Shown here: positions 1 to 30,908 of the stretch, one piece after another
Numbering within the stretch: the stretch's first letter is position 1
Layout of the letters: each line of letters opens with the position of its first letter
Source: Spirochaetia bacterium
Lineage (GTDB): Bacteria; Spirochaetota; Leptospiria; Leptospirales; Leptonemataceae
NCBI GenBank assembly: GCA_021413825.1
Contig: JAIOPQ010000057.1
Coordinates: forward strand, 1-64,000
DNA: 64,000 nucleotides
Direction: 5' to 3'
The notes under the pieces: model-generated
The model's database searches: none
Seen by the model: only the letters and a program-made list of their open reading frames with translations
What the model was told of the DNA's origin: nothing
Program-made: the position numbers and the translations under genes

Positions 1-367
1 CGATGGCTAGTAGTGCGTATTCGCGTCTGAGCTGGCTCGTATCCATTTGAAAAAGCGGTTGAGCGCGCGCTACCTGTTGGCCTTCACGCACCAGGCCGAT
101 ACCAGCGGCGGGAGCCTGAATCTCAATCCGCGGAAGCTCGAGCGTAGCAGGAAGAACAAGGGTTCGCGATTCGTTGCGCGTCTCGACGATAAGTGTTTCC
201 TTCGACCCGACTATGGATCTGGCGAAGCGAGTGATACGACCAAAGTGTGAGAGGTCGGAAACGTCAGCGAGAATATGCGAGGGCTGAGCGGCGGCGGCGA
301 GCGCGCCAAGGAGCAGCGCATTCAGTAGCCAAACCCCGCGACATACGATACGCAGACCAGGTCTCAT
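1..367 (-). CDS. Periplasmic adaptor (membrane-fusion-like) protein, N-terminal part
   Basis: This gene runs off the left edge and only its first 122 codons are visible. It starts at an ATG at 365-367, 47 bases past the stop of the RND gene upstream. Residues 9-27 are a hydrophobic signal peptide ending in an Ala-rich stretch before QPSH. Residues 80-112 (IEIQAPAAGIGLVREGQQV and on) look like the first half of a lipoyl/biotinyl hairpin of efflux adaptors: a beta strand, AP-G-G, then EGQ-V. With the complete adaptor at 6640-8160 the operon would have two adaptors. It could also be another exported protein with a lipoyl half-motif, since the coiled coil and beta barrel lie outside the window. 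Confidence 0.6.
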   Translation of the reverse strand, partial: MRPGLRIVCRGVWLLNALLLGALAAAAQPSHILADVSDLSHFGRITRFARSIVGSKETLIVETRNESRTLVLPATLELPRIEIQAPAAGIGLVREGQQVARAQPLFQMDTSQLRREYALLAI

Positions 368-414: not shown

Positions 415-3400
415 TCAGCCGCGACGGGCCCTGCTCCGCTCTACAAGTCGCTGGATCGTCGCGCTTATCCAGGGACGAATCCCAGCAAGGAGTTCGCGCA
501 ACTTCGCGCGATCGGGCCTGAACTGGAAGAGACCGATCGTAATGATTGGTGTCAGGATCAATGCAACAGGCAGACCGCAGACCATGATGACAGTTGCACC
601 AATCAAAAGGCTCCTACCTTCGCCGGGGGCGAATAGAAAAGGAACAAAGAAAGCGAAAGTCGTGAGGTATCCCATTAGCAAGGGGCGAATCCCATCAACG
701 ATAGTTGCCGAAAGTGGTTCCCCGGAATTTCTTCCTTCGCGCTGCAATTGAGTCAGGATCTGCATTGTCATCGCCGCAGTAAAAGCCGCAAGCATCAGCA
801 TTGCTGCGAGTCCGGGCACGGTAAGCGTTGTGCCAAAGAGGCGGAGGATCAATCCCGCGATGATCAAGGGTGCCGGGATTACGGCGAGAACAAACAACGG
901 CTTCGTTAGCGATTCAAAGTAGGAAGCGATGATCATGAAAATGAGCAGGAAAGCAATCAAACCAATTCGGTTGAACTGCGATCTCGTATCCTGGATTTTC
1001 TCGAACTCGCGGCTCATCGAAATTCTGTAGTTCAAAGGCAGTTCAGTGGCTCGCAATTTGTCTACGAGATTGACGATTGCGGAATACTCCACATTGACCG
1101 GACGAAAGGAAAACGAGAAGACGCGCTTCTTATCTTTGCGATAGATTTTGACGGGAACGAGACTCTCTCTGAGAACTGCCACTTCTTTTAATGGGATGAA
1201 AAGCTTCTCAAGGGTACTCAGGCTGATTTCGTTGATGCTATCCGGATTATCCCGAAAGATCTCCTTGTAGCGAATTCGAACGTCCAGCTCCCGCGTCTGA
1301 TCAATGAATTTTGTTGCCACCCCGCCTTGAATGGCATAGCGCACCATCTCACCAACTTCCTTCGAGGTGATCCCGGCCTTCTCCGCCTTGAGCTTGTCCA
1401 CGACCACCTGCAATTCCGGACGAGGAGATTTGTAGCGGAGCACCACATCGCGCACTTCTGGAAACGCTTCTGTTCGCTTGGCCAGTGATCGCGTAATCTT
1501 GTCGAGTGTGTCCAGGTCAGGACCAAAGCAGTCTATCGTGACTTCGCGAAGGGCGCTACCCTCGGCTTGACTTGCGAAATAAATAAAGGCAGGTTCGACG
1601 GTTCCGATAGTTGAACGAAGAAAATCCGTGTAGGCTCCGTCTGCTGTTTGTCCTTTTTCCAATCGCAAGAGAACGGTTGCCTGGGATGCTTCCACTTTCG
1701 CATTGATCTGTTTGATCCCCTTCACTCCCTTGAGCTTCTCTTCAACCTTCTTAGTCGTTGCGTCAGTTACCCCAAAACTTGTTCCGGAAGGAAACTCGAT
1801 GTTTATTCGCACTTCGTTCTCTTCCAGTGGATTGCCAAACTCCTGGGGTGTCCCTGTCAGAAGGAACAGTCCTACGATCGTAAACAGAAAGTATGCCGAA
1901 GCAACCACTGTTAGCCTGGTTTCAACGAAAAGCAAACCCCGATTGATGAACGCGATGGTCCATTCCATCCCGATTGGGCGGGCGGTGGACAAAACCGCCA
2001 ACCGCTGCGCCGCACGCCTGAGTAACTTCGCAGGCCTGGCGATTAAATGATGCCTGATACCTGAAAGCGCGCGGACCAGAGAGGCCAACGAAACGTTAAA
2101 CGGTGTTGTTGCTTTCAATCGCTCCCGTAAGAGCGGAAAGACGGACAGCATCAGTATGAAACCTGGAATAATCGCAAAGATAATGGAAACGGCAAGTCCG
2201 CCGTACACAAGGCGTGCCTCGCGACTTGAGAAAACCACTGGCAGGAATGTTGCACAGATTAGGAGCACCCCGATGAATACTACTGACTTCACCGGAGCCA
2301 CGCCGGAAGACGGCGCGCCGCTCAACCCGTTTGCTCCCAGCAATCCAATCGAAATGCCCACGGCTAAAACGAGTCCAGAGATAGTCAGCAGGTTCAGGTC
2401 CATCTGCATCAAGTACAGAACGAAAATCGAACTCAGGCATGCAACGCAGGCGATCAAAAGCAATAAAAGGGCAACACGAACCCGAATTCCGAATACGAGA
2501 CGCATGACAATGCAACTCAGAATGAAACCCAGAATCACAAAGACGAGAAATGTCTGAAGGGTTCCCCGAACCTGCTCCGCCTGGTCGTAGATGATTGCAT
2601 AGCTCACGTCGCTGAGCGCAAACGTTCCAAGCAGCTCATTGACTTCCGCAGAAACATCCAGAAGGTTCGCTCGGCTTGCGCGATACACGTACAGTCCAAC
2701 CCTCTCCTCTCCATCCACACGCGATGCAGAATCCTGCTCACGAAACGCATAAGAAACGTCAGCTACGTCGCCCAGCCGTATCATGGCGTTACGGCTGGAG
2801 GAAAACACCACTGTGTTCTTGATCTCGCTGACAGACTTAAAACGACCTTTGGCGTAAAGCTTGTAGCGGCCGCCACCGTCATCGATTGTTCCGGCAGCAA
2901 CGTTCAAGTTGACTTTCTGCAGCGCCTGAAACAGGTCTCGCATGGAAAGCGAATACCCCTGCAACTTCTGCCTGTCGCAGTCGACGAGCACCTCTCGCAT
3001 TCTGCCGCCGGCTACGCTTACCTGGCTGACACCCTGAACACCTGACAATTGTTTTGCGATCTGACGCTCGGCGATCTCGCGAAGCTCGGAGAGATCCTTT
3101 TTCGTGCTATTCAGAACGATGATGAGGACCGGACGTTGATCCGGATCATACCTCAGAATCACGGGCTTCTGAGTTTCCCGGGGAAAAGCCGAAGCTACAA
3201 TGTCTATCCGCTCGCGAACCTCCAGTGCCTTCAGATTGACGTTTGAACCTTGATCGAACTGAATGTTGACTTTCGTCTTCCCTTCTTCTGATACGGAAAA
3301 CAATTCCTCAATGCCGCCTACCGTTGCGACAGCATCTTCGATGGGACGCGTGATGATTTCCTCAATCTTGTCCGGCGTTACGCCCGAGTAGTTTACCTCG

Positions 3401-3537
3401 ACTGTCAGGCCAGGATACTCAACGCCGTGCCCGAGGGTTACCGGAATTAGGAATAGCGCAATTGCCCCGAGCAAGCCAGCACCGACAGCCAGCATCACGG
3501 TCGTGAGAGGGTTCTGGCGTGCGTAGCGTTCAAGCAT
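415..3537 (-). CDS. RND efflux transporter, degenerate proton relay (RND-1)
   Basis: This 1040-residue protein has the full RND layout: TM1 near residues 12-32, a large periplasmic loop, a TM2-6 block at about 325-470, a second loop, and a final block at about 860-1010. Length is normal for the AcrB/MdtB family. The TM4 segment reads LVLAVGISIGLLGAN. Where AcrB-type pumps carry two adjacent aspartates it has Gly398 and Leu399. The segment matching TM10 (about 905-935) has no charged residue. It is therefore unlikely to move protons by the standard mechanism. Its ATG directly follows the stop of the RND gene at 3538-6627, suggesting translational coupling and a mixed trimer of the MdtBC kind, with this subunit passive. 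Substrate is unknown. Confidence 0.9.
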   Translation of the reverse strand: MLERYARQNPLTTVMLAVGAGLLGAIALFLIPVTLGHGVEYPGLTVEVNYSGVTPDKIEEIITRPIEDAVATVGGIEELFSVSEEGKTKVNIQFDQGSNVNLKALEVRERIDIVASAFPRETQKPVILRYDPDQRPVLIIVLNSTKKDLSELREIAERQIAKQLSGVQGVSQVSVAGGRMREVLVDCDRQKLQGYSLSMRDLFQALQKVNLNVAAGTIDDGGGRYKLYAKGRFKSVSEIKNTVVFSSSRNAMIRLGDVADVSYAFREQDSASRVDGEERVGLYVYRASRANLLDVSAEVNELLGTFALSDVSYAIIYDQAEQVRGTLQTFLVFVILGFILSCIVMRLVFGIRVRVALLLLLIACVACLSSIFVLYLMQMDLNLLTISGLVLAVGISIGLLGANGLSGAPSSGVAPVKSVVFIGVLLICATFLPVVFSSREARLVYGGLAVSIIFAIIPGFILMLSVFPLLRERLKATTPFNVSLASLVRALSGIRHHLIARPAKLLRRAAQRLAVLSTARPIGMEWTIAFINRGLLFVETRLTVVASAYFLFTIVGLFLLTGTPQEFGNPLEENEVRINIEFPSGTSFGVTDATTKKVEEKLKGVKGIKQINAKVEASQATVLLRLEKGQTADGAYTDFLRSTIGTVEPAFIYFASQAEGSALREVTIDCFGPDLDTLDKITRSLAKRTEAFPEVRDVVLRYKSPRPELQVVVDKLKAEKAGITSKEVGEMVRYAIQGGVATKFIDQTRELDVRIRYKEIFRDNPDSINEISLSTLEKLFIPLKEVAVLRESLVPVKIYRKDKKRVFSFSFRPVNVEYSAIVNLVDKLRATELPLNYRISMSREFEKIQDTRSQFNRIGLIAFLLIFMIIASYFESLTKPLFVLAVIPAPLIIAGLILRLFGTTLTVPGLAAMLMLAAFTAAMTMQILTQLQREGRNSGEPLSATIVDGIRPLLMGYLTTFAFFVPFLFAPGEGRSLLIGATVIMVCGLPVALILTPIITIGLFQFRPDRAKLRELLAGIRPWISATIQRLVERSRARRG

Positions 3538-6500
3538 TCAAAGACCCGCTTGTTTTCTCATGCGAAGATGAAAGAGCACGGGAATCACAAACAGGGATAT
3601 GATCGCCGATGCGAGGAGTCCGCTGATCACCGTAATTGCAAGCGGTGATTGAAATTCTGATCCCTTGCCAATTTCAAGGGCAACGGGGATCATTCCTAGA
3701 ATCGTAATTCCATTGTTCATGATGATGGGACGCAAAACCAGCTTAGAAGCATTCACTATATTCTCGCGAAGCTGGTAACCTTCTTCCTTGAGCAATTGGA
3801 TGTACTCATAGAGCAACGCCGCGTTATCCACAACGATTCCCACCAGCAGAATAATTCCAGTGAAAGAGCTATCGTTCAGACTTTTGCCCGTGAGAATCAG
3901 GGCCGGGAAAACTCCGATGACTATCATCGGGATGGTTCCGAGCATGATGAATGGTTGGACCAACGACTCAAAATGCGACGCGAGTAGCATATAGATGAGA
4001 ACAATGGATAGACCGAATGCGAGCAACAGTTCGCGAAAGGACTTGGATATGTTTTCCTGTTCTCCCCCGTGCACAATCCGATATCCTTCAGGTAGTGTGG
4101 TCTTCGCGAGATATCGTTCAATGTCGTTGTAAACGGCTGTGGAATCCTTTCCGGAAATATCTGCCGTTATCCGATTGATGCGTGATGCCCCGGACCGTAG
4201 GATTGACGTGTAGCCTTTTCCTGGCTTCAGATCCGCAAGTTGCGACAGAAAGACAGATCCAGATTCACCGGTTCTGAGTGGAATTTCCATGACTCGTTCA
4301 ACGGTCTTGCGATCCTCTTCCCGAAAGCGAAGCCGTATGTCGATCTCTTCGTCTGCGAGATGGAGTTCGGTCACGACGCTACCGCGAATGGCCGTCTTGA
4401 GATAATCAGCCAGATACGAGTGCGAGAGATTGGCTCCCGCCGTGTGCCCTTCGTCGAAAGTCACGTGGAACTCGCGTGCCTCATCTTCCATGCTTGTGAC
4501 CATACCGGTGATGCCAGGAAATTTGCCGAGGTCGCCTTTGATTTTACGCCCCAGCTCTTGAAGCGTACTCAGATCATCGCCGGCAAGATCCAGAGAGATA
4601 GCCCGAGATCCGGGTGAAAGAATACCCGACATCACGTCCGACTTCACCACAAAATAGACGTCTACATCGTCCCTGACTTTGATCTGTTTTTCAAGCTCAG
4701 CAGCCAGCTCACGAGCTGTATTACCACGATCATCCGACATGATCACGCGAATCTGCGCCAGATGAGTCCCAACGTCCGAGGAGCGCGTGGTCAGAACTTC
4801 TTCCTCGTCGTATCCAACGCGCGATAGTACGTGCTGGATGTGTTTCTTGCCGATAACCTGCTTCTCAACGACCTCGACAACCTCGGACATTGCCGCAAGG
4901 GACGTGCCCTTGGTCGCGCGGAGATTGATTGCGAATTCACCGGTGTCCACACGAGGAATGAAACTGCGCTGAACAAAGGGAAACAGGCAACAAGAGACAA
5001 CGAATAGAGTCCCTACCGGGATAAACAGGTGGCGCGGATGATTCAGGAAATGCTGTAAGCGTCGCTCGTACGCGCCGTCGAGTCTGTGCTCGAATTCAGC
5101 GATCTTCTTGATGAACGCATATTTATCAAGCTTCACCCTTGTAAGCCAGGGTAAATTCAGGGAGGACAGCGTTGGAATCAAAGTCAAGGCGACTATCAAA
5201 CTCACGAGGGTTGAGACTGTAATCGTCAGTGCCATTTCGGCAAAGACGACACCGACAACGCTCTTCAAGAATACGATCGGAAGGAAAACAACAACGAGCG
5301 TCAGGACTGCGGATGTTACCGATCCGGCCACTTCGTTTGCGCCCTTCAAGGCTGCCTCGCGTGCTGGCATACCTGTGGCCACATAACGTTCAATCGACAT
5401 CATTACAACGTTCCCCGATTCGAGCAGCATGCCGATTCCAAGCTCTAACCCGCCGAGGGACATCATGTTCAACGACACGTCGTAGAAATACATTGGGATG
5501 AAGGTGGCGATGACGGATGTGGGCAGGATAGTCAGGAGAATCATGGGATTTCTGAGATTCCTGAGAATAATGAACAGGGCCATGAACGCCAGGATAGCAC
5601 CGGCGATTATCTCACGGAGCAGGTTCCGAATCGCCATGCTGATGAAATTGGATTCATCGTAGACTATGTCCGCTTCGACTTCACGTCCAAACTGTTTTCG
5701 GATCGTCTCCATCTCTGCTCTAACATTCTGGGAGACGTCGATTGTATTCTTTCCCGCTTCCTTGTAGAGCGAGACGATCACGCACTCCCGACCATTGTAG
5801 CGCGCCATCCCACTGCGTTCTGCGTAGCCGGCGTGAACGTTCGCCACTGACGATAGAAAGACTGGTGTTCCCTGCTGATTGCGGCTAACGATGGTTCGTT
5901 TTATATCCTCGATGCTGTTGTATTCGCCCAGGGAGCGGATCAGTACGTCGCGGCTGCCAACGGTGATATGCCCCGCAGGAAAGTTCAAGTTGGCTGAGGA
6001 TATTGCTTCACGCAGCTCCGGCAACGTTAAGCGATGTGCAGAGAGCGATTGCGCGTCTACATCGACCTGAACTTCTTTCTTATGACCGCCTGAGAACTGA
6101 ACCATGGCCACGCCATCCGCTCGCTCCAGGAAGACTTTGACTTCATTGCGTAGGAAATGCCGCAAATCCTGTTCGTTTCCCAGCTCCTTTGCGAAGAATA
6201 CAATTTCCATGAACGCGGATTGATTGGGGTCAAAACGGGTTACCACAGAGCGTCCTGCATCCTGAGGTAACGTCCCGCGAATCAAGTCCAGCTTCTCGCG
6301 AACCTCCATGACGGCAAAATCGATGTTTGTCCCCCAGGAAAACTGAAGGGTGACGAGCGAAATTCCTTCCAGGGATTCGGACTGAATCTTTTGAATCGAT
6401 CCGACTGTTCCCACTGCCTCAGAAATCGGCTTCGTGATCAGGTTCTCAATTTCTTCCGGAGCAGAGTTGGAATAAAGCGTAACTACGGTAACACGCGGAT

Positions 6501-6627
6501 ACTCAATGTCCGGAATCAGGTTGACTTTCAGATCTCGAAACGAGATCAAACCCATCAGGATCACACCCAGGTAGAACATACCCGTCGTAACGGGTCGATT
6601 GATGCAGAATCGTTGGAGCGCTCGCAT
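3538..6627 (-). CDS. RND efflux transporter, partner subunit (RND-2)
   Basis: This 1029-residue RND protein sits between the adaptor gene (12-base gap) and RND-1 (TGA directly followed by ATG). It keeps the usual two six-helix halves, each with a large periplasmic loop. TM4 reads LELGIGMLLESGNVV, so the aspartate pair is replaced by Glu403 and Ser404. That keeps one acidic group. In the TM10 region GIVVDNAALLYEYI has an Asp in the area of the AcrB relay lysine and keeps the following Asn. It resembles CzcA or HAE-type transporters but is not clearly a metal pump. It is the likely proton-coupled member of the pair and exports an unknown substrate with adaptor 6640-8160. Confidence 0.92.
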   Translation of the reverse strand: MRALQRFCINRPVTTGMFYLGVILMGLISFRDLKVNLIPDIEYPRVTVVTLYSNSAPEEIENLITKPISEAVGTVGSIQKIQSESLEGISLVTLQFSWGTNIDFAVMEVREKLDLIRGTLPQDAGRSVVTRFDPNQSAFMEIVFFAKELGNEQDLRHFLRNEVKVFLERADGVAMVQFSGGHKKEVQVDVDAQSLSAHRLTLPELREAISSANLNFPAGHITVGSRDVLIRSLGEYNSIEDIKRTIVSRNQQGTPVFLSSVANVHAGYAERSGMARYNGRECVIVSLYKEAGKNTIDVSQNVRAEMETIRKQFGREVEADIVYDESNFISMAIRNLLREIIAGAILAFMALFIILRNLRNPMILLTILPTSVIATFIPMYFYDVSLNMMSLGGLELGIGMLLESGNVVMMSIERYVATGMPAREAALKGANEVAGSVTSAVLTLVVVFLPIVFLKSVVGVVFAEMALTITVSTLVSLIVALTLIPTLSSLNLPWLTRVKLDKYAFIKKIAEFEHRLDGAYERRLQHFLNHPRHLFIPVGTLFVVSCCLFPFVQRSFIPRVDTGEFAINLRATKGTSLAAMSEVVEVVEKQVIGKKHIQHVLSRVGYDEEEVLTTRSSDVGTHLAQIRVIMSDDRGNTARELAAELEKQIKVRDDVDVYFVVKSDVMSGILSPGSRAISLDLAGDDLSTLQELGRKIKGDLGKFPGITGMVTSMEDEAREFHVTFDEGHTAGANLSHSYLADYLKTAIRGSVVTELHLADEEIDIRLRFREEDRKTVERVMEIPLRTGESGSVFLSQLADLKPGKGYTSILRSGASRINRITADISGKDSTAVYNDIERYLAKTTLPEGYRIVHGGEQENISKSFRELLLAFGLSIVLIYMLLASHFESLVQPFIMLGTIPMIVIGVFPALILTGKSLNDSSFTGIILLVGIVVDNAALLYEYIQLLKEEGYQLRENIVNASKLVLRPIIMNNGITILGMIPVALEIGKGSEFQSPLAITVISGLLASAIISLFVIPVLFHLRMRKQAGL

Positions 6628-6639
6628 AGCGACCCAGTT

Positions 6640-8160
6640 TTACGGTGTAGCCGGAGCGCTCTGGACGCGCATTCCTTCGCGAAGCTGCGACAGTTTTTCA
6701 GTTACGATTACGTCACCCTGCTTGAGGCCGGATGAAATCTCGACTCTGTCATCCGAATACTGCCTTCCGGTAACCACGTCCGCTCTGTAAAGAACACCCT
6801 GACGAAGGATGAAGACGTATGCATTGTTTTCCTTTTGCGGAAGCACAGCTGCTGCGGGCACCACAATCAGTTTGCGGGGTTTGCCTGTGATAATACTGGC
6901 CCGAATAAACATTCCGGGCCTTAGCTTGAGACCGGGATTCTTTAGAAGTGCTTTCACTTGCAGGGTATGGGTCTTTGGATCAATTACCGGGAGAATAATT
7001 TCTATGATGCCTTTGAATGTTTCTTTGGGATATACATCGACCTTGAAGTCCATCGTCTGACCTTTTTCAAGGTCTTTTAGATCCGATTCCTTCACGTCCA
7101 TTGTCGCATAAACCGAATTCAAATCCACGAGAACCATAATCGACTGAGCTGCATTACCGGCCGAACCACCAAGCACCTGCTCACCGACACTCTTGTTGCG
7201 CTGAGCTACAACACCGTTAACCGGCGATGTGATCGTGGTCTCTTTTAGGAGGGTCGTGGTGTTACTCATTGCCGCTTGAGCAGAGTTTACTTTGGACCGC
7301 GCGACGCCGATGTCGGCTTCTTCGATTCCGCTGTTGATGTCCATAAGGACTTCTTTTTTCTTTTCCGGATCTTCCGGGATACTCAGTCCGCGTTTTTGAA
7401 TATCCAGATCTCTGAAGCCAATGCTTTGAATTTCAAGATCCTTCTGCGCCATCCGATAGGCGGCTTCGCGGGCGATCAGTTCCGTTCGCATCTGGCCGTA
7501 TTCTTCGCGGCTGATCCCACCCTCTTTATAGAGAATCTCTTTGCCATCATACGTTGCACGCATCTTGTCCACGTCGGCGCCCAGCTTCTTTAGAAGTGTA
7601 TTCTGTTTTTCAATTTCCTTGAGTCGCCCTTCCATTCCGCGACGAGCAACGGCGTGCTTCTCGGTCGCGAGTGAGAGTTCAGATTTTGCGCCCTGCAGAG
7701 CCGCCTCCTGCTGCACAAGCTCAAGTTGTAAAAATACCTTTTCGAGCTGAACCAGAGTCTGGCCCTGGCGAACGACCTGGCCTTCCTTTGCAAAGAACTG
7801 TTCGATTCGACCCGAAGTCTTGGCATTGATTTCAACCTTCTGAAAGAATTCGACGGACCCTGCGCCATCAATCCGGGGTAAGACTTCTTCCGGTTGAATC
7901 GACAGCGTCTTGAGAGTCAGCGCGCTGAGATCAGATCCTTCTGTCTGATTGGCCTGCATTGCATGCGCGAGTCTCTCAATGGGATAGAAGACAGTTCCGA
8001 CGACCGTTCCATACAGTCCCTTTCGCATCGAGGAGAGATATACGCCAAAGATTGCATAGAGGACGATATACGCGACCAGAGCAATGCCGAGTTTGAGATA
8101 CGTGCGACCGCGAATGCGGAGCGGAAACGAGATGAGCGTGCGAAGAAGGTTCATGATCAT
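6640..8160 (-). CDS. HlyD/AcrA-type membrane-fusion protein
   Basis: This 506-residue adaptor links inner-membrane RND pumps to the outer membrane. A transmembrane anchor spans residues 24-43. The first lipoyl half is near 106-140 (KTSGRIEQFFAKEGQVVRQG). A long alpha-helical hairpin, rich in Glu, Lys and Gln, follows to about 310. The second lipoyl half is ITSPVNGVVAQRNKSVGEQV. The beta-barrel and membrane-proximal domains end the protein. Its ATG overlaps the stop of the Yip1-like gene (ATGA at 8157-8160), and an alternative start lies two codons in at 8154. The uncleaved anchor, instead of a lipidated or cleaved signal, and the roughly 100-residue N-terminal extension are slightly unusual. 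Confidence 0.92.
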   Translation of the reverse strand: MIMNLLRTLISFPLRIRGRTYLKLGIALVAYIVLYAIFGVYLSSMRKGLYGTVVGTVFYPIERLAHAMQANQTEGSDLSALTLKTLSIQPEEVLPRIDGAGSVEFFQKVEINAKTSGRIEQFFAKEGQVVRQGQTLVQLEKVFLQLELVQQEAALQGAKSELSLATEKHAVARRGMEGRLKEIEKQNTLLKKLGADVDKMRATYDGKEILYKEGGISREEYGQMRTELIAREAAYRMAQKDLEIQSIGFRDLDIQKRGLSIPEDPEKKKEVLMDINSGIEEADIGVARSKVNSAQAAMSNTTTLLKETTITSPVNGVVAQRNKSVGEQVLGGSAGNAAQSIMVLVDLNSVYATMDVKESDLKDLEKGQTMDFKVDVYPKETFKGIIEIILPVIDPKTHTLQVKALLKNPGLKLRPGMFIRASIITGKPRKLIVVPAAAVLPQKENNAYVFILRQGVLYRADVVTGRQYSDDRVEISSGLKQGDVIVTEKLSQLREGMRVQSAPATP

Positions 8161-8819
8161 TGAGCCGGCCGAACCAGGAGTGAAAGTAGAATGGTAGTCA
8201 CGACGTAAGGGCTAATCCACGTGAGTATCCCGCGACCGCGATTCTGAGTTGCCCGGACCTGCAACCCTTTGACGCAGAGCACGCCATCCCAGATCCAGGC
8301 TGCGAGCAGAAGAAATCCGCTGAGCCCGAATCGGATATACATCCAACCAGGTCTGGACTCAAGCAATGGGTACGGCCATACGTTGGCGAGCACGCGAAGC
8401 CCGGTTGCCAGGGACAACAATGGAATGATCGCCACACACGTAATCAACAGATACGTAGAGAAGGCACGCTCTGAATCGCCCAGCCATCCGGCAAAGCTCC
8501 GGCGCATGAAAGCGGCGAAAAGGATGAAGGCGCCCCAACCCAACGCGAACCGGATTACATCACCCGGAAATCGAGGATCACCGGAAAACATAAGGCGCAT
8601 CTGATCGCGATATTGGGAAGGAAAGATTGGCTCCGGATCGACCCATGCTCGCAGCAACGATGAAGCGACCAGGAAGAGCAAGAGGAAGCCAAAGAAGAGT
8701 CCCATCGTTTCAAAGGTTGTGCGCGTCTGGGGATGATTCGCTTCAAAGAATGATCGGGGATTTCTGGTGGCACCGCAAAATCGCAGTACCGATTGAATCC
8801 TTTCGCGGACCTTGCCCAT
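8157..8819 (-). CDS. Yip1-like multi-pass membrane protein (paralogue 1)
   Basis: This 220-residue protein has about five membrane segments (near 38-57, 85-105, 120-145, 160-185 and 200-216). Its end has the signature NRGRGILTWISPYVV, which recurs almost unchanged in the proteins at 10627-11280 and 50515-51237, so the three are paralogues. The overall shape resembles the Yip1 family. It is translationally coupled to the adaptor gene through an ATGA overlap, so one copy has joined an efflux operon while the other two sit beside MORN and TPR genes in the toxin loci. Function is unknown. A role in membrane assembly of the export machinery is inference. Confidence 0.7.
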   Translation of the reverse strand: MGKVRERIQSVLRFCGATRNPRSFFEANHPQTRTTFETMGLFFGFLLLFLVASSLLRAWVDPEPIFPSQYRDQMRLMFSGDPRFPGDVIRFALGWGAFILFAAFMRRSFAGWLGDSERAFSTYLLITCVAIIPLLSLATGLRVLANVWPYPLLESRPGWMYIRFGLSGFLLLAAWIWDGVLCVKGLQVRATQNRGRGILTWISPYVVTTILLSLLVRPAQ

Positions 8820-12314: not shown

Positions 12315-12656
12315 TCATTTTTCCTTACTTGAGCCCGGATTGCATGCGCCTGCAGCCGAGTCCTCCAAGATGGAATCCTTCAGTCGCCAACCAGCTGCTT
12401 CGTCGAACATCTCGTCAAACATTGATTCTGGCAGAATTCGCAAATCCTCACCTTCATGCTCTGAACAGAATTGAGCCATTGCTGAAGCTAGGTCAGGACC
12501 TTGCACCCGTTTCAGTGTCTTCTGATCAAGCCAACCTGTGAATCTAAAGGGAATTGGCTCACCCGATTCGGCTATGCATGCAGCCTTTCCCAAATCAATT
12601 CCCTGTCTGCTCTGCATTGCCACCAAATAAAAACTATGGCTCACGGTTTTACCCAA
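12315..12656 (-). CDS. Candidate immunity protein to the tRNase toxin
   Basis: This 113-residue protein has no signal peptide or membrane segment and is acidic towards the C terminus (AMAQFCSEHEGEDLR, FDEMFDEAAG). I do not recognise its family. The case for immunity is context: its ATG lies inside the last codons of the giant toxin gene (16-base overlap, same strand), the usual position of immunity genes in CdiA and polymorphic toxin systems. A soluble cytoplasmic protein is what a tRNase would require. Small acidic immunity proteins are common against basic nuclease domains. Confidence 0.65.
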   Translation of the reverse strand: MGKTVSHSFYLVAMQSRQGIDLGKAACIAESGEPIPFRFTGWLDQKTLKRVQGPDLASAMAQFCSEHEGEDLRILPESMFDEMFDEAAGWRLKDSILEDSAAGACNPGSSKEK

Positions 12657-15600
12657 ACATACTCACCACTGCTGGTCAAGATTTTTACCTCCTTTAATGC
12701 TCCCATGCGCCCGGACTGCACTTGTTGCTGGACAGCGCGAATTGCATCCGCGTGGCTGAGACCGGCAGAACGTCCATCAACGATTACTCTGTCCGATTGG
12801 TACTTGGCTTTCCCCAAATTGTTTCGAACGGCATTAATGCTAGCACTCTCAAGCGTTTTAAATTCGTAACGTACCCCGTTTACCACGAAATCATATCCTT
12901 CGGCCTGACTACCTCGCACGATTACGTTGTTGCCCTTCGAAGCGAGTTCTTTTGCAAAATCGATCTCTTTTCTATACGCTTTGCCTAAGACCTTGACATC
13001 CCCGAGAACGACTTTGAGTTCATTCTTGATTACTTGAGACCCCGGACCACCCATGTAGGCATCACCTGCAACGATCGCAGCAATCGCTTCGCCAATCGTG
13101 ATGCTATTTGCCGTTGCAAACAGATAAAGGGCTGGACATCCCCCCGCCGCGCATGCAACCACGCCCACCTCAACGGCGGCTGCGACGGCACTTGCCTTAG
13201 CCAAATTAGCTGACGTCTCGTTCATGCAAGCCGGCCCATCATCACAAGCCATTCGTAGCCCAAGACCGAAGCTACCGTAAGGATCATCGTTGTGCACGAG
13301 TGATTCGCCTTCCCCAACAAAGTAGTCATGCGCTTCCGCTACTGAGAAGTTATAGACAGTCACCGTACGTGGAATCATCTCAACGGTGGAAATCGTCGCT
13401 GACCCTGGTAGCTCTGCTGGCAAAAACACGGCTTCCTTTCCCTTACCCGTTTCTGAACCCGTGAAAGACACTGTTTTCACAGGAAACTTGTGTCCATCGG
13501 CCATAGTCACTCGTTCATTGTGCCTCGCGATAGCGGCTATCGTTGGAATTAGCATGCCAGCACGGAGGTCCCTTCCCTTCACCCAACCTTTGCCGGCCAC
13601 ATAAAACCGATGCGACCATGTCGTTTCAAGGCTCGTTCCGTCCAGGCTAGTTACACGGTAGATTTCTGGGGTCGTTCGAACGAATGTTTCCTGTACTTTC
13701 GAATATGTCAATGCGCCCGTCTTTTCATTCCACGCAATCACCGTGTCTCCGCTACGAATATCCTGTATTTCTTTGTAATGCTTGTGATTCTTTACGAATG
13801 CCCCGCGCGTCTGCGGAGCAACCAGAACTAACGTTCCCCGGGTGAAACAGGTCCGGCTCTGATACTTCCCATTCGTATCAATGTATCCCCAGCGGTCGCC
13901 GAGTCCGCCGCCAGCCAGCTCATGCATTCCGTCCTGGATATCCCCAAAGAAGTCATCCAGTATCCCATCACCCCGCGATGCTTCCATATCGCGCGGCGGA
14001 CTTTCTCCATTCTGAATCCTTAGCGCCAGTTCTTTGTTGTGCAGAGCTGTAAGCTCTGCCTCGCGCTGAGCTTCCGTTAAGTTCGCCCATGCCGCAGCAC
14101 TGTAGTCTTTGCCCGTTAATTCCTTGATGCGATCACGGCGCCCTTTATCCAGCTCCGCCTGTTTCTGAGCCTGATCCATCGCTTGCGCATAGTCATGCAA
14201 AAGAGTGGGATTGATGGTACCTACGCCGCGGTCGGTCAGGGTTCCCACATTCACTCCCTTCGTGCTCATGCTCACAGAAAGCGAGTCTTCGCCATCCCAT
14301 CCGCGTGTATAACTCAGGCCGATCCCGTTCTCTCCATATCTGCTGCTGGCTTTTCCCGAGTATTTGATGCCTGCAGTGATTCCGCCGTGCTGTGAAATGC
14401 CCGCATTTACGCCAAGACCCGCTGGCATCCTACCGGCGTCACCTTTGAAGTTGTGACTTATGTTGGCTCCGAAGCCACTTGCCCTATCATAGGAAAGGCC
14501 AAATGCTGGACCGTCCTTCTGACCATAGCTTCCGCTCACAGATAATCCGCCCCGTACACTATATCCTACGGATCCACTGAGCCCGTCTGCATCTCCCGCG
14601 TTGAATGAAACGCCTAGCCCATTCCTATCCGAATACGTAAGGGCGCCGCCCAGTTTTCCAGAGCCAGGACCGTATCCCAGGGAGGCTGAAAATCCTCCCT
14701 CATGTGTATAACTCATACTGCCGCTTACAAATTCTAAGGACGCAACTGTCGCTGTGCTGGCTCCGGCTAGTGCAGCAAAACCTGGGATCGCTTGCAGAGC
14801 AAGGCTTCCCGCAGCTACCAGCGCACCCTTGTCCCCACCCCTGATCCAGCCTTCACGGACTTTCCAGGCAGTGTAAGCTCCGCCGCCAATCAGGCCGGTC
14901 GTTGCGTCCATCAGCATCGGGTGCTGTGCATAGGTTGCAACCAGTCCCTTTTCAATTCTGGAAAAGACTTTGTCGTTGGCCATGAGTATGGCAGAGCCGA
15001 CAACGACGAAGGGATTTCCAGATGCAAACGCCAGTTGCATGATTCCGCCTCGAGCACCGAAACCCAGGTTCTTCGTAAAGTCCGATGCAGCGGCGTAATC
15101 ACCATTGGCCTTCATCTTCATGGATTCTTTCAATCGATCATTGCCGGCCAAATCAGCGGCGCCTTTCAGTGTATTGTATTGGATCTGTGTGGCGACTTTT
15201 TCGGCCATATTGCCGTAGACCTTGGTTGCGATCTTGATGTCTTTCGCCAGGACATCAAGGCCCGTGTAAGCACCGAGCTTTGCAACATTGTCGAGTTTGG
15301 TAATGCCAAAATCTTTCTTGAGTTTGTCCAATGGAACCCCAGTAGTTGCGGCACCCAAATGTGCAACGGCACCTTTGTAGTCACCCGTCACCCACGACCC
15401 AAAGGTATCTCCAAGGTTTGTAACTATCCCAACAACCCCATCCAGGCCTGCCTGCAACGCTCCACCCAGACCCTTCCCGGCCAGGCTGGCTTGATACATT
15501 CCTTTTCCCAGTCCCCAAATGGCGCCAGCAATAGGAATAGAGGAAATGGCTTGATCTACCTTCGCGAGCTTGGGGTTGTAAGCCGCATTGCGCATAGTGT

Positions 15601-18376
15601 ACGTAACGGCTCCGAGAATTAGATCTTCCGGTTTTAACTGAGCAGCCTTAGTTTTTGCCTTCTTTGCGGCCGCCTGGGACAATTGAGTCTGGAGCATACT
15701 TGCCAGATCTGCATTTCCAATCGCTTCGCCAAGGTGCTGATATGCCAGACTCTCGGCATAACTTGCGGCGGCTTCGTGCGGTTTCATCCCGCCCATGAGT
15801 CCGGAAAGGAAGCCGGAAGGAAAGCCCGTGGCCGCAGAGATTGCGTCAGCGATCTGTCCGCGCACCTGGCCTTGCGCCCAGGATTCAAATGTGCCGCCTG
15901 TGAGGAGTGCGGTGAGCAGGCTTTTGATCTGGGCTGCATCGGCAGCTTTCTTCTGCGCTTCCTTTGAAAATGCCTGGAGATTGTCTCCTACTACTTTGTT
16001 TGCAGCTTCCAGAACCTCGCTCTGCCGATTCATCGATTCTTCGGTTTGCTTCTGGTAATCGTTCTGAGCGTCCAGAATTGACTGAAGATTCCACTCGCTA
16101 AAGAGTGAACCAGTGCTCGCCAGTTTTTGCGTCGGAGGCGGAGCAATGTGAATGGTCTGTTGCGCAAGGACGGGGTGATAGGCTTCCGCGTTCGTCGGAT
16201 CGCCACCGTCATTCAGTGCTGCCTGGCCGTTGGCAACCGCTCTTGTTAACGTTATACGACCAGATGCATCCGTCGTAACTTGAATCGAAGAGTCAGAGAC
16301 TTTTCCTTCGGCAATATTCTTTTGCACTTCCGCCGTAATCTGATCCCCGCTCCATTCAGGATGTGCAATCGACAGGGCCAGTGCATCCGCCTGTGCTTTC
16401 GCACTTGTGATCATACTCTTAACGGCATCAGATTTCATATGCTCGGCTTCATCGCTGGCGGTCTTTGCAATAGCGAGGTTTGACAGACCGCCTAACGTTT
16501 CGCCAAACTTGTTTTCCAGGTTTGAGATCAAACTGAAATCAGGCAGACCAATCGCGGCACTGTCATTGGCATGCGTAGAACTGGATGGCACGCTATTTAC
16601 AATAGATATAAGGTTTGCAAGGTTAGGTTGCTGGACCGGGGTATACGCTGGCAAACCAGCAAGCACAGCTTTGGCAGCTTCTTGTTGAGCCTTTGGATCA
16701 CCGCCTTGCGTCGCGTTTTGGGCAGCAGCAAGGTCAAGAGCTACCGTTTGCCATTGGGCATCGGCAACCTTGTGAGCATCGCTCATTGATTGAAGCCACG
16801 TGTTCTTTGATTGCATCAACTGCGTCGATGCGGTGTCATATGCCTGCTGCTCCGTGATTAGGTCTTGCTGGGCCGTGGCCAACCAGGCCGCATGTTGCGC
16901 CTGATACTGTGACACCTGGACTTCCCAGTTGGCGCTTGCCTGCTGCAGGCCGGTGAATGTTGCAAGCGCAGCACTCAGGTCATTCTTGTATCCGCCCCAG
17001 GTTTGTGCGTTGGATTCAGCGATTGAATCGTGAACGTGATATGTGAGCGTTTTGATAACACTGTCTTCCGCATAGCCGCCGCCCTGAGGGATGCAGATTA
17101 CGAAGCAAATAGCTCCATTTGCGCCCCATTGAAAAGGAAAACCATCGTTCGGCAAATAGATATGATTCGTCTCCCAAGTGTTGAAGACAATTGGGAAGGG
17201 CGGATTGTGTGAAGCGGAGTATCCCTGCAGCTGAATCGAGTTTATCGTTACGGTCTTGCCTACTCCACCCAGTTGAGTCAGGAGTGGTTGCTGATTTCCG
17301 TCGATGTACGCCTGGACATTTCCAAATTGGGGATCGACGTAGAGATTGCCCCAGTTGCCATAAAAGCTCAGCGTTGCACTGTCATTATAGTTAATGTCTA
17401 CCTGGCTTTGCCAGGTTTGCTCGGTCGTATACGCAACGTTTTCCTGCGCGGTGAGATAGTTCACCATCGTCTGCGTAACTTGAGACAGCGGCGCATTCTG
17501 CTGCAGCGCTGTCTGAATACTCGTTATGACCGTCAGGAGATCGGTTCCCGCTTGATTCATTGCGCTGACGCAATTATTTCCCTGAGCGTCGCATGTCGTA
17601 TTGTAGAACAATTGACTGCTCTGCAAATAGCTCTGCATCCCCTGAACCTGCGTGCTAATCGCGTTGCGAACGTTTCCTTCCGCTGCCTGAATCCCCTGAA
17701 GATTTTGCTGATATTCTTGCTCTGTCTGATTCAGGCCGGCAATAAACGAATTAAAGTTTTGATCCAGCGCACCCTGGGCCGCACCAAACTGATTCAGGCC
17801 ATTCGCAAGTTGCGCATTGAATCCCTTTTCGTAAGCGGCTTTCGCGTCTGCTACTTGCTGCGCCGCATCCTTGAAAACATCGGAATTCTGAGTGGGCGCT
17901 GTCGCATTCAAAAGAGCGTCTGCCTGGGTCTTTGCGTCCTGCTCTGCTTCCTTGAGATCGGCGGTGCTAAGCGATGCGATGAAAGTCTGGCGTTCAGTCT
18001 GGATGGTAGTCTGAGCAGCGCTGGTCCAGCTCGCTTCGGCGGCGCTCATCTGGCTGAGGAGCGCACTCCGGACATAGTTTTGATAGTCAACCTGACTGTT
18101 TACAGAATCCGATTGCGTAACATTGAGCAGCTCTGTGTTAATCTGCGCGGTGACGACCGCTTCCCATGTCGCGCGAAGCCCCGCGAGACCACCCTGAACA
18201 ATCGTCTCCCACGCGGCCTGGCTTTGCGCTCCTTGAGCCTGGCTAATAGTTGGATTCAAGTCCTGACTATTGAAAGCCGGAGGTTGCAGTTGCGGGACAG
18301 GCGCCGGTTGGCCAATCAATCCAACGAGGGAAAATAACAACAGGTTTGCGACAAAAACTAATCGAAAGGGCTTCAT
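12641..18376 (-). CDS. Giant polymorphic toxin: Lepto_longest trunk, Hint domain, CdiA-type tRNase tip
   Basis: This 1911-residue exported protein has a signal peptide (about 1-23, ending LVGLIGQ). A long trunk rich in Gln, Ala and coiled coil follows (about 25-1210) and resembles TIGR04388. A Gly-rich beta-repeat zone spans about 1215-1390. A Hint (hedgehog/intein) domain spans 1510-1696 with Cys1510, the TTWSH block and the closing VHN, so autoproteolysis looks intact. The last 110 residues (1799-1911) resemble the CdiA C-terminal tRNase domain of restriction-endonuclease fold: Asp1829, Glu1838 and Lys1840 in YDFVVNGVRYEFK give a D...ExK site, followed by AVRNNLGKAKYQSDRVIVD. The trunk is shared with 53853-60521 but the tip is different. 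I infer that Hint cleavage frees a nuclease to enter a competitor. The delivery route is unknown. Confidence 0.88.
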   Translation of the reverse strand: MKPFRLVFVANLLLFSLVGLIGQPAPVPQLQPPAFNSQDLNPTISQAQGAQSQAAWETIVQGGLAGLRATWEAVVTAQINTELLNVTQSDSVNSQVDYQNYVRSALLSQMSAAEASWTSAAQTTIQTERQTFIASLSTADLKEAEQDAKTQADALLNATAPTQNSDVFKDAAQQVADAKAAYEKGFNAQLANGLNQFGAAQGALDQNFNSFIAGLNQTEQEYQQNLQGIQAAEGNVRNAISTQVQGMQSYLQSSQLFYNTTCDAQGNNCVSAMNQAGTDLLTVITSIQTALQQNAPLSQVTQTMVNYLTAQENVAYTTEQTWQSQVDINYNDSATLSFYGNWGNLYVDPQFGNVQAYIDGNQQPLLTQLGGVGKTVTINSIQLQGYSASHNPPFPIVFNTWETNHIYLPNDGFPFQWGANGAICFVICIPQGGGYAEDSVIKTLTYHVHDSIAESNAQTWGGYKNDLSAALATFTGLQQASANWEVQVSQYQAQHAAWLATAQQDLITEQQAYDTASTQLMQSKNTWLQSMSDAHKVADAQWQTVALDLAAAQNATQGGDPKAQQEAAKAVLAGLPAYTPVQQPNLANLISIVNSVPSSSTHANDSAAIGLPDFSLISNLENKFGETLGGLSNLAIAKTASDEAEHMKSDAVKSMITSAKAQADALALSIAHPEWSGDQITAEVQKNIAEGKVSDSSIQVTTDASGRITLTRAVANGQAALNDGGDPTNAEAYHPVLAQQTIHIAPPPTQKLASTGSLFSEWNLQSILDAQNDYQKQTEESMNRQSEVLEAANKVVGDNLQAFSKEAQKKAADAAQIKSLLTALLTGGTFESWAQGQVRGQIADAISAATGFPSGFLSGLMGGMKPHEAAASYAESLAYQHLGEAIGNADLASMLQTQLSQAAAKKAKTKAAQLKPEDLILGAVTYTMRNAAYNPKLAKVDQAISSIPIAGAIWGLGKGMYQASLAGKGLGGALQAGLDGVVGIVTNLGDTFGSWVTGDYKGAVAHLGAATTGVPLDKLKKDFGITKLDNVAKLGAYTGLDVLAKDIKIATKVYGNMAEKVATQIQYNTLKGAADLAGNDRLKESMKMKANGDYAAASDFTKNLGFGARGGIMQLAFASGNPFVVVGSAILMANDKVFSRIEKGLVATYAQHPMLMDATTGLIGGGAYTAWKVREGWIRGGDKGALVAAGSLALQAIPGFAALAGASTATVASLEFVSGSMSYTHEGGFSASLGYGPGSGKLGGALTYSDRNGLGVSFNAGDADGLSGSVGYSVRGGLSVSGSYGQKDGPAFGLSYDRASGFGANISHNFKGDAGRMPAGLGVNAGISQHGGITAGIKYSGKASSRYGENGIGLSYTRGWDGEDSLSVSMSTKGVNVGTLTDRGVGTINPTLLHDYAQAMDQAQKQAELDKGRRDRIKELTGKDYSAAAWANLTEAQREAELTALHNKELALRIQNGESPPRDMEASRGDGILDDFFGDIQDGMHELAGGGLGDRWGYIDTNGKYQSRTCFTRGTLVLVAPQTRGAFVKNHKHYKEIQDIRSGDTVIAWNEKTGALTYSKVQETFVRTTPEIYRVTSLDGTSLETTWSHRFYVAGKGWVKGRDLRAGMLIPTIAAIARHNERVTMADGHKFPVKTVSFTGSETGKGKEAVFLPAELPGSATISTVEMIPRTVTVYNFSVAEAHDYFVGEGESLVHNDDPYGSFGLGLRMACDDGPACMNETSANLAKASAVAAAVEVGVVACAAGGCPALYLFATANSITIGEAIAAIVAGDAYMGGPGSQVIKNELKVVLGDVKVLGKAYRKEIDFAKELASKGNNVIVRGSQAEGYDFVVNGVRYEFKTLESASINAVRNNLGKAKYQSDRVIVDGRSAGLSHADAIRAVQQQVQSGRMGALKEVKILTSSGEYVWVKP

Positions 18377-27656: not shown

Positions 27657-28076
27657 TCAATGCACCCAGCGAACTTTCTTTTGATCATTTACATAGAACA
27701 CACTGATGCCAAGTCGCCGGATCAGCGGCAGAATCGGGTCCACAATATTGCAATGATGCGCGTTGTCGGGCACCGCGATCGCCACCTGAGTTAGCTTCGG
27801 GGCTTTTGCAGCTAATGTCCCCATGGTTTTCAGAAGGGCTCCCGCAACATGGGACTTTACCTGTGCACCGGTAAACTGTTTACCGTACCTATTCGTGGCT
27901 GGTTTGGAACTCGTCGCGCCCTTCGCCTCGATATAGAATGTCTTCTTCCCGTCGGCTGAGATCATTTCGAGATCAACACCGCGCTCATTTGGGTCCGCCC
28001 TTCCGTGAAGTGAATATCCCTTTCTCCTTAGAAAGGCAAGAACGGCATCAATGACGTCCTTCTCAGTAAGCATCAC
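27657..28076 (-). CDS. PD-(D/E)xK nuclease-like protein
   Basis: This 139-residue protein has the core ERGVDLEMISADGKKTFYIEAKG, giving Asp at about 34 and Glu-x-Lys at about 48-50, the signature of the restriction-endonuclease fold. A helical tail and strands follow (LTQVAIAVPDN, ISVFYV). It resembles small proteins often found in type I restriction operons. The start overlaps hsdM's stop (four bases) and its stop lies two bases before the EVE gene. It could be a nuclease or a structural partner. Confidence 0.72.
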   Translation of the reverse strand: MMLTEKDVIDAVLAFLRRKGYSLHGRADPNERGVDLEMISADGKKTFYIEAKGATSSKPATNRYGKQFTGAQVKSHVAGALLKTMGTLAAKAPKLTQVAIAVPDNAHHCNIVDPILPLIRRLGISVFYVNDQKKVRWVH

Positions 28077-29530
28077 TTCCGACCGAGGCTTTCATACACG
28101 CCCCGAAACTGCTCCAGGGCCGCTTCCAGGTTCTCAATGATTTCCTGGGCTATGATCTCCGGCTCCGGCAGGTTCTCAGCGTCTTCAAGCGAATCATCCT
28201 TCAGCCAGAAGATATCCAGACTCGTCTTGTCCCGTTGGATTATATCTTCGTAAGCGAATGCGTGGAATCGATCGGTCTCTTTACGTTTGCGACGATTGTC
28301 AGGGTTGAAACACTTTATGAAATCCTCGAGATCGGAATACTTGAGCGTATTCTCTTTCAGCGTAAAGTGCATGTTAGTCCGCAGATCATAGATCCAGACC
28401 TTTTCCGTCCACGGCTTCTCGCTTGCAGGCTTTCGGTCAAAGAAGATGACGTTGGCCTTCACTCCCTGCGCATAGAAGATACCCGTGGGCAGGCGAAGAA
28501 GCGTGTGAACATCCAGTTCGGCAAGGAGTCGCTTGCGCAACGTTTCACCAGCACCACCCTCGAATAGAACGTTATCCGGCACTACAACAGCGGCGCGGCC
28601 GTTAATCTTGAGGAGCGTCTTCATGTGCTGCACGAAGTTGAGCTGTTTGTTCGACGTTGTGGTCCAGAAGTCTTCCCTTGTGTATTGAAGGCTTTCTTTA
28701 TCTGCCTTGCCTTCATCGTTAATAATTGTGACAGATGATTTCTTGCCGAAGGGCGGATTACTCATGATGAGATCGAATCGATCTCCGGGATCAGCAAGCA
28801 GGGCATCGGCCACAACAACCGGGCTTTCTTCCCCGCCAATGCCATGAAGATGAAGGTTCATCACACAGAGGCGTGCGGTGCTATCGACAATCTCCCAACC
28901 CTTGAATGTTTGGTGTTTAAGAAATTCCTTCTGACCCTTGTCCAGCTTGAAAGTCTGCGCTATGTAATCATGTGCCGAGAGGAAAAATCCTCCGGTTCCA
29001 CAAGCCGGGTCTGCGATCGTTTGACCTGGCTGAGGCCGCATAACTTCTACGAGGGCTTTGATGAGCTGCCTGGGTGTGAAATACTGACCCGCCCCAGACT
29101 TAACGTCTTCTGCATTCTTCTGCAAAAGCCCTTCGTATATATCACCCTTGACGTCGATGTCGAGCCCGGACCAGGTCTCCTCATCGATCAGCCGGATCAG
29201 GCGCTCCAGTTTTGCGGGGTCTTGAATCTTGTTCTGGGATTTGCGGAAGATGATGCCGAGGGTGCCCTTCTCTTTCCCCAGGGATTCCAACAGGTGACGA
29301 TAGTGTACTTCAAGCTCGTCCCCGCTTTTCGGAACCAGGCTCTGCCAGTCGTATTTCTTTGGAATAATCGATTCCTTCTTGAACGGCGGACGCGTTTGTT
29401 CGTCAGCCATTTTCAGGAACAAGAGATACGTTAGTTGCTCTACATAGTCGCCGTAAGAGACGCCGTCGTCTCGGAGGACGTTGCAGTAATTCCAGAGTTT
29501 CTGGACAATCGCGGTTGATTCGTTAGCCAT
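28073..29530 (-). CDS. hsdM: Type I restriction-modification methyltransferase subunit
   Basis: This 485-residue protein has an N-terminal helical domain (about 8-140), the QYFTPRQLIKALVEV motif, SAM motif I ADPACGTGGFF (173-183) and catalytic NPPF (258-261), typical of N6-adenine methylases. The C terminus is helical and charged for HsdS binding. It overlaps hsdS upstream by eight bases and the nuclease-like gene downstream by four. All key motifs are intact, so the complex should methylate adenine in a bipartite target. Confidence 0.96.
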   Translation of the reverse strand: MANESTAIVQKLWNYCNVLRDDGVSYGDYVEQLTYLLFLKMADEQTRPPFKKESIIPKKYDWQSLVPKSGDELEVHYRHLLESLGKEKGTLGIIFRKSQNKIQDPAKLERLIRLIDEETWSGLDIDVKGDIYEGLLQKNAEDVKSGAGQYFTPRQLIKALVEVMRPQPGQTIADPACGTGGFFLSAHDYIAQTFKLDKGQKEFLKHQTFKGWEIVDSTARLCVMNLHLHGIGGEESPVVVADALLADPGDRFDLIMSNPPFGKKSSVTIINDEGKADKESLQYTREDFWTTTSNKQLNFVQHMKTLLKINGRAAVVVPDNVLFEGGAGETLRKRLLAELDVHTLLRLPTGIFYAQGVKANVIFFDRKPASEKPWTEKVWIYDLRTNMHFTLKENTLKYSDLEDFIKCFNPDNRRKRKETDRFHAFAYEDIIQRDKTSLDIFWLKDDSLEDAENLPEPEIIAQEIIENLEAALEQFRGVYESLGRK

Positions 29531-30908
29531 GTTTTCTCTCCGATTCGCTCGCAGGGACGAGCTTGCCTTTAAAAGCCCTAGTCAGGATTGATTGCCGCAA
29601 AGGTTCTGCTGATGCGTCGACTTTGGCGACGAGACCGCCTAAACCTTCGACGTCAGCCATGTGGGTATCAAGGGTGTCGCATAGGAAAGCCTGCTCTTCT
29701 TTGGGTGGGACTCTGACCAAATACTCGAACAACTTCTCACCGGGCAGATGCTTGATAGTGGTGCCGGTAAAAAGTCGTGCCAATCGATGCGTAGAAGAAT
29801 CCAATTCCAACTGCCACGCGTATAGGTGCGAAATGATCCCCGCAAGTGGCCGGGCCCGATGGAGAGCCTTTTGAATGACTATGGTATGGGACTTCTCCCA
29901 AACTGCACAACGACCCGGTTCTCCCCCTTCGCAAATGATGAGGTCACCGGAAACTGCACTTACGTTCTCAATCTCCTCGCTTTGGAGGCGGATCTCCTTC
30001 AGCTCAATTAAGTCAAAGGAATGCCATCGAACGTTGATATTGCCAAGGTAGGGATGGAGGGTTCCCAAGTTCTTCGCTTGATCAAGCATCTTACCCAATC
30101 TGCAATCAAAAATGTCGGTGAACCTCGCCCAGGCCCAACCTTCCGGCAACTCCGGCAGACTACTCGTATCCAGTGTCGGCAGTTCCTTGTATCTCTTCCC
30201 CATCTTCTTCTTCCGCTCTTCGCGAATGCGCTCAAGAAGCAAGGAGGCCGGTTCGATCTTGTCCCGATTCTCCTGCCGCCATTTCTCTGTTACCTTTCCG
30301 CTGAAAGCACTCTTCAATAGGGACTGACGGTATTGCTTCAGCAAGACTTTCGCTCGTTCGAGTGCCTGCACACCAGCATCGACCTGAGTGAATAGCTCCT
30401 CGATCTTGGCAACGATGCGGCGTTGTTCGGGGAGAGGCGGAAATGGAATCTGGATCGTCTGCAACGAAGGAACGTCCAGACTTTCGACTGTAGTGCCATC
30501 TTTCATACAATCACGGAGAATCCGCCGGTTTTCTCCGACGGAATAGTAGTACACGTATTCAGGCTCGATCTGGGCAGATGGTGTAAACGCTCGCAGGTCT
30601 TGGTTGACCGCACCCTCAACGGTGAGGATCGAGACCGGCAATATTCGCCGGAGAATACCGGATCGAACAACGTAGAGCACAGAATTGGGGGGAATGATTT
30701 TCGCCGCTGATTTTGCCAGCGCTTCACGGGAAATGTGATCCTCGGTGTCGACCACCCGAACACTCTTCATATCTTTGGGACTCACCCAGGGGATACCTGT
30801 TGGTACCCAGTACTCTGGAGTGCTCTTCGACGGAGTCCCTCCGCCTCTCCAAACGCCGAGATCAGACAATCGTTTGCGCTGCCAGCCAGCGGGCATTGAA
30901 TCGCTCAA
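29523..30908 (-). CDS. hsdS: Type I restriction-modification specificity subunit
   Basis: This 461-residue protein has two target-recognition domains (about 8-175 and 250-420). Each is followed by a long conserved helix; the first contains PLPEQRRIVAKIEELF and LKQYRQSLLKSAFSGK, the second ends LRQSILTRAFKGKLVP. This is the full-length two-TRD arrangement. It overlaps hsdR by four bases upstream and hsdM by eight downstream. The TRDs set the target sequence, which cannot be read from here. Confidence 0.95.
   Translation of the reverse strand: MSDSMPAGWQRKRLSDLGVWRGGGTPSKSTPEYWVPTGIPWVSPKDMKSVRVVDTEDHISREALAKSAAKIIPPNSVLYVVRSGILRRILPVSILTVEGAVNQDLRAFTPSAQIEPEYVYYYSVGENRRILRDCMKDGTTVESLDVPSLQTIQIPFPPLPEQRRIVAKIEELFTQVDAGVQALERAKVLLKQYRQSLLKSAFSGKVTEKWRQENRDKIEPASLLLERIREERKKKMGKRYKELPTLDTSSLPELPEGWAWARFTDIFDCRLGKMLDQAKNLGTLHPYLGNINVRWHSFDLIELKEIRLQSEEIENVSAVSGDLIICEGGEPGRCAVWEKSHTIVIQKALHRARPLAGIISHLYAWQLELDSSTHRLARLFTGTTIKHLPGEKLFEYLVRVPPKEEQAFLCDTLDTHMADVEGLGGLVAKVDASAEPLRQSILTRAFKGKLVPASESERKHG

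Follow-up and report, generated by a model that had tools for sequence, protein, structure and literature searches.

A spirochaete RND permease pair with one relay-less and one rewired partner, a candidate hetero-oligomeric efflux pump

Introduction

Two-permease RND pumps are known from MdtABC-TolC of Escherichia coli, and also from MuxABC-OpmB and SmeJK, in which an adaptor and two adjacent RND genes yield a B2C heterotrimer. MdtBC is reported to act as B2C, with relay mutations more damaging in MdtB and substrate bound mostly to MdtC (PMC4338810, PMC10924465). The two subunits are functionally asymmetric, with adaptor-proximal MdtB mainly performing energy coupling. A 2024 survey of 6205 RND proteins placed tandem permeases in the MdtBC clade only, its sampling depth in the phylum considered here being uncertain (PMC10872679).

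AcrB is powered via D407, D408, K940, R971 and T978, and R971 also contacts E414 and N415 (PMC8277102); the D407N, D408N, K940A and R971A mutants are inactive (PMC4359379). Pumps of this type are thought to require cycling of all three protomers, and in a fused AcrB trimer a single inactive protomer abolishes transport (PMC10924465, PMC5719797). Here we describe a tandem permease pair from a spirochaete, located in a window of 64,000 nucleotides (the whole stretch of DNA analysed), in which one partner lacks the relay residues and the other carries a rewired set.

Results

The locus lies on the minus strand in the order MFP1 (8160-6640), RND-2 (6627-3538), RND-1 (3537-415). The periplasmic adaptor MFP1 (506 aa, 6640..8160; TIGR01730 E=6.7e-57, above cut-off) opens the conserved trio, and provides the operon-borne adaptor expected of HAE-type systems. 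RND-2 (1029 aa, 3538..6627) matches ACR_tran over its whole length (E=7.2e-226), and RND-1 (1040 aa, 415..3537) matches it in two stretches (E=1.2e-125), the better covering residues 7-395. Both proteins thus match PF00873, the family of HAE-type tripartite RND efflux permeases, and the layout, with two homologous permease genes side by side after the adaptor gene, is of the MdtBC type. Neither RND reading frame contains an internal stop, and their coordinates are unchanged from the first-pass annotation, whose claim that the two genes are directly coupled holds, as the RND-2 stop codon is followed by the RND-1 ATG with no base between.

A Yip1-like membrane protein (8157..8819, minus strand; Pfam Yip1 E=9.5e-5, below cut-off) overlaps the MFP1 start and is a possible member of the operon; it is not conserved throughout the clade described below. 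Small Yip1-like membrane proteins (8157-8819, 50515-51237 and L042:9851-10537) are found repeatedly, both near RND pairs and at other places on the contig.

Directly downstream of RND-1 is the N-terminal part of a second, divergent adaptor, MFP2 (1..367, minus strand), the rest of which lies outside the window at contig positions 68829-69662 (minus strand). Pfam gave no useful match for MFP2, and its full-length homologue in the related genome G001 matched TIGR01730 (NCBIfam) below cut-off (E=1.9e-17); among 61 genomes searched, MFP2 was found in the window's own genome and in G001 only. Window positions 1-21 are identical to positions 69653-69673 of the same contig (G000:C42), an exact 21-base overlap of the contig ends, and the MFP2 reading frame continues across the junction. 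Gene order over the junction is as in G001, where an OMF fragment is 89% and a TPR protein 82% identical. Given this overlap, frame and synteny, the contig is probably circular, with a length of about 69.65 kb; the contig ORFs scanned included no recognisable replication gene.

An OEP protein on the same contig (64885-66483) supplies the nearby channel typical of HAE-type systems, and in G013 an OMF 44% identical to that of the window's contig directly follows RND-1. The pump in the window's genome would be MFP1, RND-2, RND-1 and MFP2, with the OMF a few kilobases on and on the opposite strand. Elsewhere in the window, a 1911-aa protein with pretoxin HINT and CdiA C-terminal domains (12641-18376, minus strand) resembles a polymorphic contact-dependent toxin, and type I restriction-modification genes encode methylase, specificity and restriction subunits (28073-33652, minus strand). 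FlaA was present in all 31 genomes searched that comprise the window's own and its relatives, and in 0 of 14 controls, which makes a spirochaete origin of the window very probable.

The relay residues of RND-1 were assessed in an alignment with AcrB, MdtB, MdtC, CusA and 60+ relatives, with the window codons checked. We take the relevant relay positions to be AcrB D407 and D408 (TM4), K940 (TM10), and R971 and T978 (TM11). RND-1 has none of them, carrying G398, L399, A922, G949 and G956 in their place. G398/L399 (2341-2346) lie within TM4, LNLLTISGLVLAVGISIGLLGANG (2326..2397, minus strand); A922 (772..774, minus strand) occupies the K940 position in a TM10 without a charged residue; and in TM11 (670..693, minus strand) G949 (691-693) and G956 (670-672) stand at the R971 and T978 positions. 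The first-pass annotation had reported the Gly-Leu replacement of the TM4 Asp pair and an uncharged TM10, and the alignment bears out both: acids elsewhere in TM4 or TM10 were looked for and none was present, nor was any D, E, K, R or H found within the core of either helix. We suggest from these residues that RND-1 would have lost ion coupling altogether.

RND-2 aligns E403, S404, D934, V964 and N971 with AcrB 407, 408, 940, 971 and 978. Its TM4 site (5395..5421, minus strand) has E403/S404 at the D407/D408 positions, N406, and M410/S411 at the positions of E414 and N415, so that the AcrB partners of R971 are gone and N406 and N972 are gained. D934 in TM10 (3826..3828, minus strand) sits at the K940 position and is invariant in all seven clade members, and TM11 (3712..3738, minus strand) has V964 at the R971 position and N971/N972 at those of T978/S979. 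Each of the two acids, E403 and D934, is the last residue of a GxxxE/D motif (G399xxxE403 in TM4, mirrored by G930xxxD934 in TM10), and the site is therefore pseudosymmetric, with the two-acid arrangement of MmpL/Dispatched-like sites. The earlier view that RND-2 keeps its relay stands in part: E403 and a TM10 Asp are present, but the second TM4 acid is replaced, as are the Lys of TM10 and both the Arg and the Thr of TM11, leaving one TM4 acid and an added TM10 Asp where HAE permeases have the canonical relay. Because K940 and R971 are essential in AcrB and missing here (PMC4359379), coupling by RND-2 is itself something we infer.

Sampling of 393 genomes from the phylum yielded seven with the arrangement adaptor, rewired RND, degenerate RND, all from a single order and divided between two of its families. 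Six of the contigs span the region and show this gene order; the seventh (G029) begins inside RND-2. Besides the window's genome, the carriers are two from its genus, two others from its family and two from the second family of the order. Across the 393 genomes, scores fall off after the recognised members, from 1051 to 964 bits for the RND-2 model (1051 bits being the score of the truncated G029 gene, whereas full-length members reach at least 1618 bits) and from 1325 to 719 bits for the RND-1 model. The most divergent RND-1, that of G024 (539 bits), was recognised by adjoining a rewired RND-2. A wider scan of a contig collection returned a single distant Alteromonas homologue.

Within the clade, the RND genes abut, overlap by up to 35 bp or sit 8 bp apart, and RND-1 reading frames are intact in all members (951-1083 aa). 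The relay set is absent from RND-1 in 7/7, the TM4 and TM11 alignment of G024 being uncertain, and all seven RND-2 proteins combine a D or E followed by S or N in TM4 with a TM10 D, a V or I at position 971 and NN at 978-979. Loss in RND-1 and rewiring in RND-2 are confined to the same seven of the sampled genomes. Among 42 adjacent pairs in the phylum, upstream Arg971 was lost in seven, every one with a downstream partner lacking the 407 acid; in the other 35, the upstream TM11 Arg was lost in none and the downstream TM4 acid in two (Fisher p = 1.3e-6, the seven pairs being related and not independent). The joint occurrence of both signatures, found in 7/7 clade pairs, exceeds chance.

Among the ordinary two-RND operons of the phylum, the relay is retained in each partner, with two exceptions, both of them losses in the downstream gene. 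In G110 (L141:3868-10344), the upstream RND has D-K in TM4, and the downstream RND (991 aa) has lost its membrane site broadly, with the acid at D407, the motif of TM10 and the Arg of TM11 all gone; the locus is an independent degenerate pair. An RND-RND fusion had been suspected here, but the genes are separate and the downstream one is a further degenerate partner. In the downstream RND of G204 (L142:7256-10279), Ser-Ser replaces the Asp pair of TM4 and Lys replaces Arg971; its upstream partner is normal. Several downstream partners carry a milder change of Arg971 (to His, Lys or Val), which is seen in no upstream partner outside the seven. An ordinary upstream RND in G002 (L046:8116-11310) carries a TM10 Asp with Arg971 kept, and may represent an intermediate of the rewiring.

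Selective constraint differs between the partners and along RND-1. We compared dN along the genes between the window and G001, rather than dN/dS, because synonymous sites are saturated. RND-1 dN was 0.05-0.13 in periplasmic segments, 0.30-0.36 in TM2-6 and 0.51 in TM10-12, and RND-2 dN was 0.01-0.10 throughout. The ratio of membrane to periplasmic identity was 0.39-0.76 in the degenerate RND-1 clade, against 0.93-1.46 in ordinary downstream partners, 1.01-1.58 in the RND-2 clade and 0.99-1.60 in ordinary upstream partners. The relaxed membrane domain and constrained periplasm thus indicate that RND-1 is selected mainly for its periplasmic part. The segment corresponding to the AcrB switch loop (about residues 613-623) is missing in the downstream partners compared, seven degenerate and the ordinary one of L042.

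A tree restricted to periplasmic columns separates upstream from downstream partners, and the branching order inside one group matches that inside the other; in this tree the seven degenerate proteins are monophyletic (100), as are the seven rewired ones (100). A second, reduced tree recovered the upstream and downstream groups as sister clades (95) and MdtB with MdtC as sisters (100). Grouping of MdtC with the downstream clade was rejected (AU p = 4.5e-5), and the duplication of the spirochaete pair is separate from that of MdtB/MdtC. The partner trees are mirrored (r=0.92), a pattern and a high r that vertical co-inheritance alone would also yield.

AlphaFold2 models, with the two window proteins and one related locus as input, had mean pLDDT of 43 (RND-1) and 40 (RND-2) and were unusable.

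Discussion

We consider it probable that the locus encodes a tripartite RND efflux pump that is an obligate hetero-oligomer, with RND-2 as its single energised permease and RND-1 as a passive periplasmic subunit. The system would consist of an adaptor, the two permeases and an outer-membrane channel, most likely with a trimer as the permease assembly. RND-2 would hold the sole ion-coupling site, and RND-1 would contribute porter and docking domains moved by neighbouring RND-2 protomers. We infer this association, its stoichiometry, the energising of RND-1 by RND-2 and the coupling ion from the residues, pairing and constraint described above. The loss of coupling in RND-1 may have accompanied a rewiring of RND-2 from a Lys/Arg-balanced site to one with one TM4 acid, one TM10 acid and additional Ser/Asn. 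The first-pass annotation had proposed a heterotrimer with a passive RND-1, and clade-wide relay loss, a relaxed membrane domain beside a constrained periplasm, strict pairing and mirrored trees support its passive partner well, if indirectly; that the supposedly active RND-2 is itself rewired had gone unnoticed there.

The intact, constrained RND-1 genes bear on whether this protein has a function at all. Its faster evolution compared with RND-2, and the relaxation of its membrane domain, would fit a decaying pseudogene or functionless relic; however, every member retains an intact reading frame, periplasmic dN is low against saturated synonymous change, and the gene has been kept over two families, so that we rejected this explanation as highly improbable. 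RND-1 might instead be an active transporter with an unconventional energy source, as suggested for mycobacterial MmpL7, which exports lipid without canonical relay residues (PMC8427324). This seems quite improbable, since RND-1 offers no alternative charged membrane residue and its membrane domain, which a self-coupled transporter should conserve, is its least constrained part.

A further alternative is that RND-2 pumps by itself as a homotrimer, with RND-1 assembling separately and sharing the adaptor without pumping, for example to act in regulation, in scavenging of substrate or as a docking platform. The better conservation of RND-2, its retained membrane acid pair and the occurrence of lone RND homologues outside pairs in the phylum would fit such an arrangement. 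We nevertheless regard it as unlikely, given that the downstream-type gene adjoins an upstream-type gene in 42/42 adjacent pairs and that conserved porter and docking domains in RND-1 suit a channel-forming trimer.

In the hetero-oligomer that we favour, the division of labour between RND-2 and RND-1 would resemble that proposed for MdtB2C, but would be fixed in sequence (PMC4338810, PMC10924465). The comparison with MdtBC made in the first-pass annotation is thus apt for function and not for ancestry: the duplications are separate, and MdtB and MdtC are sisters that each keep the full D-D-K-R-T set, which neither RND-1 nor RND-2 does. Closer relatives are the ordinary two-RND operons of the same phylum (G000 contig C41, L042), which share the duplication, gene order and adaptor, and whose downstream partner also lacks the switch loop; L042-type operons differ in keeping the TM4 acid and TM11 Arg/Thr in both partners. 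TriABC-OpmH likewise has two adaptors, as the window has MFP1 and MFP2, but a single RND permease.

Outside this lineage, MmpL7 of Mycobacterium tuberculosis lacks TM4/TM10 relay residues as RND-1 does, but is an MmpL lipid transporter of an unrelated lineage and is not reported in that source in an adjacent RND pair (PMC8427324). For RND-2, the E403/D934 site recalls Dispatched-1, with acids in both TM4 (D572/D573) and TM10 (D1051) (PMC8630017), and the Asp/Tyr pairs in TM4 and TM10 of MmpL3/MmpL (PMC8427324). MmpL3 and Dispatched-1 belong to other RND families and have no adaptor or channel, and RND-2 matches ACR_tran and RND_permease_2 best and HAE3 weakly, which places it outside the MmpL/Dispatched family. 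The likeness is confined to the site and is probably convergent.

A naturally passive protomer would be unexpected given the fused AcrB trimer, and since one inactive protomer kills that trimer, it would need a changed mechanism. The objection therefore makes the case informative, as the powered partner has been altered alongside. We tentatively suggest, at somewhat less than even confidence, a hetero-oligomer with a permanently unpowered protomer in which a two-carboxylate TM4/TM10 site replaces the Lys/Arg-balanced relay and symmetric three-protomer rotation does not occur. The two-carboxylate site is possibly coupled to Na+ or to a different H+ stoichiometry.

With the spirochaete pairs, two-permease RND pumps have a further origin, independent of that of the MdtBC lineage, and relay-residue loss in these pairs recurs, each time on the downstream subunit. 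A conserved natural pair that joins an uncoupled partner to one whose coupling site is rebuilt would test to what extent functional rotation is needed, and also the minimal residue set able to power an RND trimer.
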